Source: a bacterium | Lineage (GTDB): Bacteria > Vulcanimicrobiota > Vulcanimicrobiia > Vulcanimicrobiales > SCRA01 | Direction: 5' to 3' | Assembly: GCA_004297985.1 (NCBI GenBank) | Contig: SCRA01000049.1 | Location: 1 to 35,581, forward strand | DNA: 35,581 bases | Part shown: positions 33,457 through 35,530 of the stretch, piece after piece | Layout: every line of letters starts with the position of its first letter | Numbering within the stretch: the first letter of the stretch is position 1 | Program-made: the position numbers and the translations under genes | Notes under the pieces: generated by a model | Told to the model about the DNA's origin: nothing | What the model saw: the letters and a program-made list of their open reading frames with translations, nothing else | Databases searched by the model: none

Positions 33457-34248
33457 ATGGTCACCGGAGACTCGTCGCCAAAAACGTTCGTTGCCGCAAC
33501 GCGCCGCGACGTCCTTCTCCACGCGCTGACCTTCATCGCCGGGTTCACCATCGTCTTCGTCGCCGCGGGGGCGACGGCAAGTGCCCTGGGCCAACTCTTC
33601 GCCGAGTACCGCCAGGTCCTAACGCGGGTCTTCGGCGTGATCGTGATCCTGCTGGGCCTCAACATGCTCGGCGTCTTTCGTCTCACGTTCCTGGCGATGG
33701 ATAAGCGCCCGCACTTCCAGCACAACGGCATCTCCCTGCTGGGCTCGCTGCTGGCTGGGGTAGGTTTCGCCGCCGGCTGGACGCCGTGCATCGGCCCCAT
33801 CTTGGCGGGCGTCCTGGCGATGGCAAGCGCCACGCAGAGCGTGGGCGCGGGAATCCTGCTCCTCTTCATCTACTCGATGGGGCTGGCACTGCCGTTCTTC
33901 TTGCTGGCCGTTGGCCTGCAGTACGCGTTGCCGGTGCTTGCGCGCGTCAAACGATTCTTGCCCGCCATCGACATTCTAGCCGGCGTCATCGTGCTGGCCG
34001 TAGGGCTGGTGCTCTTCACCAACTCGTTCCTGCGCTTCACGGCCTGGCTCTACCAGACGTTCCCCGCCGCGGCAACGCTGGGTACGGGGCCGACGCTCGG
34101 CGGCGGCGCGATCACGGCCGGCGCGGCTTTCTTGGCCGGACTCGTCTCCTGTATCTCGCCGTGCGTGCTGCCGCTGCTCCCGGCGTATCTCTCGCTGCTG
34201 ACCGGGCAGAGCATCGAAAGCTTGGTGGGCTCCTACGAAGGCGCGTGA
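33457..34248 (+). CDS. ccdA: CcdA-family thiol-disulfide transporter with TM1 at the C-terminus (apparent circular permutation)
   Basis: A 263-residue inner-membrane protein of six predicted helices at about 20-46, 57-80, 92-122, 130-155, 168-192 and 216-249. CcdA carries reducing power across the membrane through one cysteine in TM1 (SPCVLPL) and one in TM4 (WTPCIGP). Here GWTPCIGPILAG is at 108-119 (Cys111), but SCISPCVLPLLPAYLSLLTG, the normal N-terminal helix, is the last one (Cys232, Cys236). The N-terminus starts with the usual TM1-TM2 linker and TM2 (RRDVLLHALTFIAGF), and the C-terminus ends in the first part of that same linker (TGQSIESLVGSYEGA). No TM1 is encoded upstream: 33381-33456 is non-membrane sequence after the hydrolase stop. 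ATG 33457 lacks a clear ribosome binding site. It is convergent with purD, 4 bp apart. Confidence 0.85.
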   Translation: MVTGDSSPKTFVAATRRDVLLHALTFIAGFTIVFVAAGATASALGQLFAEYRQVLTRVFGVIVILLGLNMLGVFRLTFLAMDKRPHFQHNGISLLGSLLAGVGFAAGWTPCIGPILAGVLAMASATQSVGAGILLLFIYSMGLALPFFLLAVGLQYALPVLARVKRFLPAIDILAGVIVLAVGLVLFTNSFLRFTAWLYQTFPAAATLGTGPTLGGGAITAGAAFLAGLVSCISPCVLPLLPAYLSLLTGQSIESLVGSYEGA

Positions 34249-34252
34249 GCGC

Positions 34253-35530
34253 TCAGCGCAACGTTGCTTCGCTGGCGATGTCGGAGCGGAACGTGAGCCG
34301 ATCGCCCACAACGGGCCCGAGGCTGCGCACGGCGCCGTAGACGCGCTGGCGCGCGGACTCGATGTCGTCGCCCAGGGCTGACACGGTGAGCACGCGTCCG
34401 CCGGGCGAGGTTACCCGCCCGTTGGCGACATCCGAGGTTCCCCAAAATGCCGTACATCCCGCGGGCAGATCGATGCTCGCTGGGAGCCCGTCCACGGGAG
34501 TCGAGCGCACCGGATACTCGCGGGTCGCCAGCACGACGCCGACGCACGCTTGGCGGCCGATGGAGATCGTCGAAGGATCGAGGATGCCGTCGGCGCACGA
34601 CTTCAGCAACAGCGGAAGGTCGCCCGTGAAGCGCGGCATCAGGACCTGCGTCTCCGGGTCGCCGAAGCGCGCGTTGAACTCCAGCACCGAGGCGCCTTCT
34701 TCCTCGTTCCACATCAAGCCGAGGTAGAGGGCACCGCGATACTCCTCACCCTCGGCCTCTAGGCCCGCCATCACCGGCGCGAGGATTCTCTCGCGTACGT
34801 GATCGAGGAGATCGTGGGGAAACGTCGCGGGCGGTGAGTACGCCCCCATGCCGCCCGTGTTCGGCCCCGTATCACCGTCTCCGGCGCGCTTGTAGTCGCA
34901 GGCGGCGCCCAGTATCACGCCGGCCCGCCCGTCGAGCAGCGCGAAGACGGAGACTTCACGTCCCTCCAGCTTCGCCTCCAGCAAAACGTCGATTCCGCCG
35001 CCGGGGACGCCCGCGCTACCGTACCAGTCACGCAGGATCGCCCGCGCGTCGTTGGGCGTCTCGCAGACCACCACGCCCTTGCCGGCGGCCAGACCGTCGG
35101 CCTTCACGACCACGGCCCCCTGCCAATCGCTGAGCGCCTTTTCGCCCTGCTCCAGCGAGTGCACGGCACGGAAGTACGCCGTCGGGATCTCATGGCGCTC
35201 CATGAAGCGTTTGGCGAAGATCTTGCTCGACTCCAGGCGTGCCGCGCTGCGAGCGGCGCCGAAGGTCGAGATGCCCGCCGCGCGCATTTTGTCGGCAACG
35301 CCGGCCGCTAGAGCCGTCTCCGGGCCGATCACGCAGAGACCGACATGTTCGGCGAGCGCCCGCTCTACCAGACGCTTTGCGTCGGTCGCGGAGACGCCCC
35401 AATTGGTACCGCGCGATGCCGTCCCCGCGTTGCCGGGCGAGGCGAAGAGCGCCTCGCAGTTCGGCGACTGCGCAAGCTTCCACGAGAGCGCGTCTTCGCG
35501 TGCCCCGTTGCCGACGACCAGGATTCTCAT
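34253..35530 (-). CDS. purD: Phosphoribosylamine-glycine ligase (GARS)
   Basis: Second step of purine synthesis: joins phosphoribosylamine and glycine using ATP. The 425-residue ATP-grasp enzyme shows the N-terminal Rossmann-like domain, IGPETALAAGVADK, SSKIFAKRFMERHEIPTA, the ATP-binding VVVKADGLAAGKGVVV, DGDTGPNTGGMGAYSPP, and LEFNARFGDPETQVLMPR with the metal-binding glutamate and asparagine. The normally conserved GxGGREHA near the start reads GNGAREDA (residues 7-14), a mild departure. The ATG at 35530 follows the guaA stop by 1 bp, so guaA and purD are co-transcribed. PurF, whose unstable product it uses, is encoded some 8 kb away in another unit. Confidence 0.96.
   Translation of the reverse strand: MRILVVGNGAREDALSWKLAQSPNCEALFASPGNAGTASRGTNWGVSATDAKRLVERALAEHVGLCVIGPETALAAGVADKMRAAGISTFGAARSAARLESSKIFAKRFMERHEIPTAYFRAVHSLEQGEKALSDWQGAVVVKADGLAAGKGVVVCETPNDARAILRDWYGSAGVPGGGIDVLLEAKLEGREVSVFALLDGRAGVILGAACDYKRAGDGDTGPNTGGMGAYSPPATFPHDLLDHVRERILAPVMAGLEAEGEEYRGALYLGLMWNEEEGASVLEFNARFGDPETQVLMPRFTGDLPLLLKSCADGILDPSTISIGRQACVGVVLATREYPVRSTPVDGLPASIDLPAGCTAFWGTSDVANGRVTSPGGRVLTVSALGDDIESARQRVYGAVRSLGPVVGDRLTFRSDIASEATLR

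Follow-up and report, generated by a model that had tools for sequence, protein, structure and literature searches.

The gene at positions 33457-34248 of the window (the whole 35,581-nucleotide stretch of DNA analyzed here) codes for a naturally circularly permuted CcdA, with its helices in the order TM2-TM3-TM4-TM5-TM6-TM1. The protein very likely still works as a transmembrane thiol-disulfide electron carrier, although its activity and the packing of TM1 with TM4 are inferred. Going beyond a preliminary description of this gene made from sequence alone, we find that the permutation is clade-wide and recurrent, occurring in families f1/f3 and f6 of the Eremiobacterota and in Chloroflexota, and is not a one-genome oddity.

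Helix order of the window protein

Translation of the gene, which lies on the forward strand, yields 263 residues plus a stop, with TM2, TM3, TM4, TM5 and TM6 followed by a linker, TM1 and a short tail. The TM4 cysteine motif, WTPCIGP, occupies residues 108-114 and the TM1 motif, SPCVLP, residues 234-239, the latter opening the stretch SPCVLPLLPAYLSLLTG (residues 234-250), while RRDVLLHALTF lies close to the N-terminus and QSIESLVGSYEGA forms the C-terminus. These motif positions and terminal peptides are as the preliminary description had given them. The features of the gene and its surroundings are listed below.

33457..34248, plus strand: permuted ccdA, 263 aa plus stop, TM2-TM6 then TM1; PF02683 and relatives
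33457..33513, plus strand: N-terminus of the permuted chain, derived from the distal half of the ancestral TM1-TM2 loop (contains ...AATRRDV)
33496..34020, plus strand: TM2-TM6 part; PF02683 profile 40-216
33778..33798, plus strand: WTPCIGP, TM4 active-site cysteine motif, residues 108-114
34024..34065, plus strand: SFLRFTAWLYQTFP, residues 190-203, what is left of the ancestral C-terminal tail; matches SFLRIAGWFYQFVP of the canonical protein L098
34066..34113, plus strand: fusion joint or linker from TM6 to TM1, with GTGP motif
34114..34212, plus strand: relocated TM1 part, now C-terminal; PF02683 profile 4-36, 5VKV 4-34
34156..34173, plus strand: SPCVLP, TM1 active-site cysteine motif, residues 234-239
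34207..34245, plus strand: new C-terminus QSIESLVGSYEGA, proximal half of the ancestral TM1-TM2 loop
32601..33380, plus strand: upstream neighbor, which from its sequence we take to be an alpha/beta-hydrolase-like ORF; G029 is the one further genome of the genus with a match upstream
34253..35530, minus strand: downstream convergent neighbor, which we take to be a purD-like ORF; beside the permuted gene in 4/4 genomes of the genus

Against Pfam-A, the protein matched DsbD_TM (PF02683) and DsbD_2 only, the former over residues 14-188 (profile 40-216; 68.6 bits against a cut-off of 27.1). A genome search with PF02683 placed profile positions 40-216 at 33496-34020 and then positions 4-36 at 34114-34212, this second stretch scoring 19.6 bits (E 9.7e-4), which alone is below the curated cut-off. 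In a phmmer comparison with the solved structure 5VKV, residues 14-200 matched chain positions 34-212 and residues 220-250 matched positions 4-34 (whole-sequence E 9.8e-30). The two blocks are thus swapped, and the order is a circular permutation whose break lies in the TM1-TM2 loop. The preliminary description had proposed both this break point and the TM2-TM6-then-TM1 order; both hold, the order on the evidence of the profile, 5VKV and relatives. The protein qualifies for CcdA membership in passing the curated Pfam threshold and in carrying a cysteine in TM1 (C236) and in TM4 (C111), each within a PC motif, and all six canonical CcdA helices are represented by homology (the 34-212 and 4-34 blocks of 5VKV); what it does not meet is the linear order TM1 to TM6, its TM1 profile part standing behind its TM2-TM6 part. 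We conclude that the gene is a circularly permuted variant descended from CcdA and not a canonical member. Neither motif pattern has a second copy in the window when all six frames are scanned, so there is no TM1 of SPCVLP type upstream of 33457, the result that would have refuted the permutation according to the preliminary description. An Rfam search of the window gave no match.

Like CcdA (PF02683; solved as 5VKV), the protein has homologous helices TM1-TM6, both cysteine motifs and a similar size, but it differs in placing TM1 after TM6, in having its termini within the TM1-TM2 loop and in its new TM6-TM1 linker. The DsbD beta domain and ScsB belong to the same superfamily as CcdA. They share the same proposed chemistry (PMC4460558), whereas the permuted protein lacks fused alpha/gamma domains, has six helices and not eight, and follows the permuted order.

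An AF2 model of the permuted protein, made with 46 permuted rows, reached pLDDT 77.7 and pTM 0.74, and one of a canonical CcdA reached 80.4 and 0.77. The last membrane helix of the permuted model is broken (221-231 and 240-249), like canonical TM1 (12-23 and 31-40); DSSP merges some helices of the permuted model. VIA-align placed 5VKV first for the permuted model (Z 6.8, rmsd 4.2 over 178 residues; next row Z 5.0), aligning model residues 18-215, which are TM2-TM6 without TM1, and first for the canonical model (Z 7.0, rmsd 4.9 over 198 residues, model 9-247), where an RNF chain reached the same Z. A Z of 6.8 is weak for a helical protein and, because a sequential aligner must lose TM1, the match fits a permutant yet proves no packing of TM1 with TM4. 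Foldseek returned nothing at E<=0.001 for the permuted model, with 5VKV outside the top 50, and ranked 5VKV first for the canonical one; the absence of 5VKV from that top 50 is no argument against the fold of the permuted model.

Occurrence and conservation among relatives

The permuted set comprises 62 loci and 51 distinct ORFs in which both motifs are present, some loci having been fetched twice. Scanning contigs with the window protein left 80 loci, 7 of them permuted: L002 of Ca. Eremiobacter, 67% identical to the window protein; L007, L024, L052, L058 and L071 from Chloroflexota records; and L078 from a 'Clostridiales' bin. Among 149 genomes of Eremiobacterota, the phylum of the window, 119 gave a match, and the permuted order was read in 20: every one of the four genomes in the window's genus, which belongs to family f1, 12 of the 14 listed for f3, one of f2 (G112) and all three listed for f6; the other two f3 genomes (G022 and G025) gave weak matches only, and their order was unread. 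Profile A1 recovered 19 full-length rows among 148 Eremiobacterota genomes, in agreement with the earlier count. Canonical order was read at 13 f2 loci (L098-L110) and at further f2 loci, and was inferred for the other f2 genomes from match ranges ending near query residue 205. In the Chloroflexota (the phylum of G149), 346 of 400 genomes matched and at least 23 are permuted on reading their loci, a lower bound. At E<=1e-40, 173 of 398 Bacillota genomes matched, and the sole full-length permuted row listed came from G153, the 'Clostridiales' bin; weaker permuted rows may be missed. As the G153 protein (L078) and its flanking ORF nearly copy L071 of Levilinea and its neighbor, that bin is probably contaminated. 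Homologs with the same order, a search for which the preliminary description had suggested, are thus found in Eremiobacterota and Chloroflexota, and such independent relatives exclude the assembly or frameshift error that it had named as a possible refutation.

The permuted proteins span 30-92% identity to that of the window. Both PC motifs lie among the 24 columns invariant in 46 aligned permuted sequences, as likewise in 38 canonical ones; the invariant residues include W108, P110, C111 and G113 of the TM4 motif and S234, P235, C236, V237 and P239 of the TM1 motif. Compared with L082, the closest gene within the genus, the window gene (L001) has 27, 8 and 79 differences at codon positions 1, 2 and 3, and differences are concentrated at third positions among all four genes of the genus. 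Because the L001/L082 differences fall mostly at position 3, the permuted ccdA is likely to be maintained as a gene.

Some individual loci also deserve mention. The f2 genome G112 has, besides a canonical gene at the lgt locus (L123), a permuted ccdA on a 4.6-kb contig (L095/L209, contig C3, SPCVFP), which could reflect transfer or contamination. In G030, of the window's genus, a second permuted copy (L117/L211, G030:C26:18562-19331) is split over two frames; it may be a sequencing error or a decaying gene. Permuted proteins L174/L234 (G517) and L058 have a long extra stretch before TM4, and the ORF following L058, L234 and L238 carries, as judged by eye, a shared LCHQ motif. Some f1 and f2 genomes contain a second, distant CcdA paralog in canonical order (L118, L119, L121, L130), which is unmatched in the window genome, G000. 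Finally, eight canonical-order Chloroflexota proteins (L159, L160, L162, L163, L165, L167-L169) carry SPCVFS, or in one case SPCVLS, around the TM1 cysteine where others have SPCVLP, the motif of L162 being known only in part.

Locus, joint and number of origins

At all 12 f3 loci the permuted gene is divergent from lgt and followed by lspA; rluD comes next in the 10 where the retrieved flank includes it. The canonical ccdA of f2 occupies the same lgt-ccdA-lspA site at 13 of 13 loci (L098-L110). We take these neighbors to be lgt, lspA and rluD, the first backed by PF01790 in the window's genus. In that genus the lgt-lspA locus has no ccdA match. There the permuted gene adjoins the purD-like gene in each of the four genomes, and in two of these the hydrolase-like gene has a match upstream. 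Family f1 belongs to the taxonomic order of f2, not to that of f3; it is plausible that f1 received its permuted gene by transfer from an f3-like donor and lost the native gene, with reversal in f2 or an uncertain taxonomy not excluded. On contig C56 of G000, a 126-aa ORF without a Pfam match (L206:3589-3969) stands at the lgt-lspA locus, where related families carry ccdA.

The joint of the window protein consists of SFLRFTAWLYQTFP, a bridge with GTGP and the approach to TM1. The canonical protein L098 ends in SFLRIAGWFYQFVPTPKL, and SFLRFTAWLYQTFP matches its SFLRIAGWFYQFVP stretch near the C-terminus, while the TM1 approach resembles the start of canonical f2 proteins. The ancestral C-terminal peptide is still legible inside the permuted chain, just before TM1. 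GTGP is present in 18 of 18 listed permuted rows of f1, f3 and L095 (17 distinct, L086 repeating L002), and its presence in all of them speaks for a single permutation event in this clade. Across the permuted set the TM6-TM1 linker measures 19-37 residues, with group medians of 20-25. The f6 linkers (L111-L113) carry LGP and resemble the GTGP joint, and for this reason a common origin of the f1/f3 and f6 joints remains possible and is not fully excluded.

The preliminary description had proposed a tandem duplication with later trimming, and this is the origin that we infer: two copies joined head to tail and in frame, after which the first TM1 and the second TM2-TM6 were lost. Given the retained C-terminal peptide and the kinship of both blocks to f2, duplication and trimming would explain the joint, as in the model published for VKOR and DsbB (PMC4555120); the proposal is supported by that peptide and by synteny, yet it remains inferred. 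No flanking remnant of the old TM1 or of a second TM2-TM6 was found by tblastn at E<=0.1 with the TM1 and TM2-TM6 blocks of eight canonical proteins, which gave 0 hits outside the gene against 1002 inside it at the 62 permuted loci (median 2817 bases outside the gene per locus). A duplication intermediate was not seen either, no ORF among 178 having two TM1 motifs under a strict pattern.

For phylogenetic analysis, the proteins were cut into a TM1 and a TM2-TM6 block, which were aligned separately and put in one order before trees were built. Eleven of 189 loci without the motif pair were dropped: the two-frame copy L117, two 100-base stubs and the eight SPCV(F/L)S Chloroflexota loci noted above, which were later read as canonical and restored in a 111-row tree. 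Dereplication at 85% identity reduced the remaining 178 loci to 107, and four long-branch rows (canonical L120, L183 and L180 and permuted L174) were left out of both the 111-row tree and a 103-row tree of 31 permuted and 72 canonical rows. Constraint groups were named by trait, though after sight of a first tree.

In the 103-row tree, the permuted f1/f3 rows and L095 form one clade (100/100) that joins the canonical f2 rows (100/98). Support for the f2 rows as one side is only 92/49, so the permuted clade could nest among them. Mean identity of this clade to canonical f2 is 68.1% in the TM1 block, against 48.4-59.2% for other canonical groups, and 53.1% in the TM2-6 block, against 36.9-41.4%. 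Permuted f6 rows join canonical L066 and L114 (97/86), and permuted Chloroflexota rows are scattered in several places among canonical Chloroflexota rows. A single clade of all permuted rows was rejected by the AU test (lnL 105.8 lower, p 2.2e-7) and again with 111 rows (lnL 110.4 lower; the printed p of 9e-82 is not to be taken literally), as was a clade uniting f1/f3 with Chloroflexota (lnL 87.6 lower, p 3.5e-6). Uniting f1/f3 with f6 was rejected less strongly (lnL 38.3 lower, p 0.0137), and the Chloroflexota permuted rows as one clade were not rejected (lnL 16.0 lower, p 0.068), these rows needing 2 changes in the 111-row tree versus 4 before. It is likely, then, that the permutation of CcdA arose at least twice, and the Chloroflexota themselves might hold more than one event. 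A bolder reading, which we also consider probable, is that CcdA has been permuted repeatedly (f1/f3, Chloroflexota and probably f6), in the same loop each time. On this reading, a small elevator-type electron carrier can have the tether of a moving helix shifted from the inner membrane face to the outer one and still function, and canonical and permuted orthologs share one locus.

Proposed function, alternatives and meaning

How CcdA works has been treated in the literature (PMC12285233), and an elevator movement of TM1 and TM4 in an O-shaped scaffold has been proposed (reviewed in PMC7329351). The permuted chain begins and ends within the TM1-TM2 loop, and a linker bridges what used to be the C- and N-termini. 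By inference, the protein takes electrons from cytoplasmic thioredoxin and hands them on, for cytochrome c maturation, to a TlpA/ResA-like thioredoxin outside the cytoplasm. TM1 and TM4 would be the moving cysteine helices, the linker holding TM1 from the outer side while its cytoplasmic end is left free. Both soluble domains of DsbD are periplasmic (PMC4460558), and therefore TM1 should enter from outside, the TM1-TM2 loop should be cytoplasmic and so should the termini of the permutant. In each of the three groups, the 24 residues on the N-terminal side of TM2 carry a net positive charge (means +1.5, +1.8 and +5.7), though they may take in residues before the true start, and mean C-tail charge is -1.1, +0.4 and -0.7; because the C-tails of f1/f3 and f6 are net negative, charge supports cytoplasmic termini only in part.

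The permuted gene is the sole DsbD_TM gene found in the 96%-complete window genome, which has ResB and Cytochrom_C_asm (CcsA-type) genes side by side on contig C90 and 13 Redoxin-family matches, with ResA-like proteins and peroxiredoxins unsorted. No thioredoxin-like partner gene lies next to the permuted ccdA in the window. The second, frame-split copy in G030 adjoins a Cytochrom_C_asm gene. At the Chloroflexota locus L058, the permuted gene comes after those for an ABC ATPase, CcmB and a Cytochrom_C_asm protein, and at L150 after that for a Cytochrom_C_asm protein; elsewhere in the phylum it precedes an AhpC-TSA/Redoxin (TlpA-like) protein at L007 and L024 and a DsbA-like thioredoxin at L052 and L145. 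L233, L234 and L238 have similar neighbors, the ORFs being judged by eye without Pfam, and no ccm- or thioredoxin-type neighbor was noticed at other loci read, such as L172 and L112.

That the order is a misassembly or binning artefact and the true gene canonical is all but excluded: the window genome is a 90-contig draft and many related records are metagenome bins, but the same order occurs in 51 distinct ORFs from many genomes, including on a 4.4-Mb contig (G161), the proteins range from 30 to 92% identity to that of the window, and the joint sequence is common to one clade. We regard as very unlikely a foreign fusion, in which TM1 was lost and the TM1 of an unrelated CcdA was fused at the C-terminus without self-duplication. 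The TM1 block, at about 40 columns, is too short for a tree of its own, but the f1/f3 TM1 is closest to canonical f2 (68.1%, versus 59.2% for canonical proteins of other phyla and 48.4% for those of Chloroflexota).

One ancient permutation spread by horizontal transfer, in place of several events, would account for the break falling in the same loop everywhere and for the likeness of the GTGP (f1/f3) and LGP (f6) linkers, and it can draw on the moderate rejection of an f1/f3 and f6 clade (p=0.0137) and the non-rejection of a single Chloroflexota clade (p=0.068); it is nonetheless unlikely, as AU tests reject an all-permuted clade in both trees and also f1/f3 with Chloroflexota, and canonical rows intervene in the tree. 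The permuted protein might also not transfer thiols and serve some other, unknown role, given that no partner gene adjoins it in the window and that Chloroflexota genomes such as G149 and G151 also keep a canonical CcdA. Against this very improbable reading stand both cysteine motifs, invariant in 46 rows, the lack of any other DsbD_TM gene found in G000, and the ccm-type and thioredoxin-like neighbors in Chloroflexota.

Natural circular permutation of polytopic helical membrane proteins seems to be scarcely documented. VKOR and DsbB are membrane redox families related by circular permutation, which has been explained by tandem duplication and outer-helix deletion; the authors present theirs as the first such case reported among distant alpha-helical membrane proteins (PMC4555120). 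That permutation is deep and inferred from folds, and which form is older is unknown; the permuted CcdA, unlike it, has canonical relatives of the same class (mean identity 53% in TM2-6, 68% in TM1), a shared locus and recurrence. The preliminary description knew of no account of such a CcdA, and we found none in the open-access literature searched, though one elsewhere cannot be excluded. The permuted order also exposes a blind spot of annotation, where the Pfam hit reads DsbD_TM and the order of the helices stays hidden. With permuted and canonical CcdA alignable, found at the same locus, retaining a trace of the joint and recurrent, the origin and the tolerance of such rewiring become testable, and the permuted protein bears on which tether of TM1 matters in the proposed TM1/TM4 elevator (PMC7329351).
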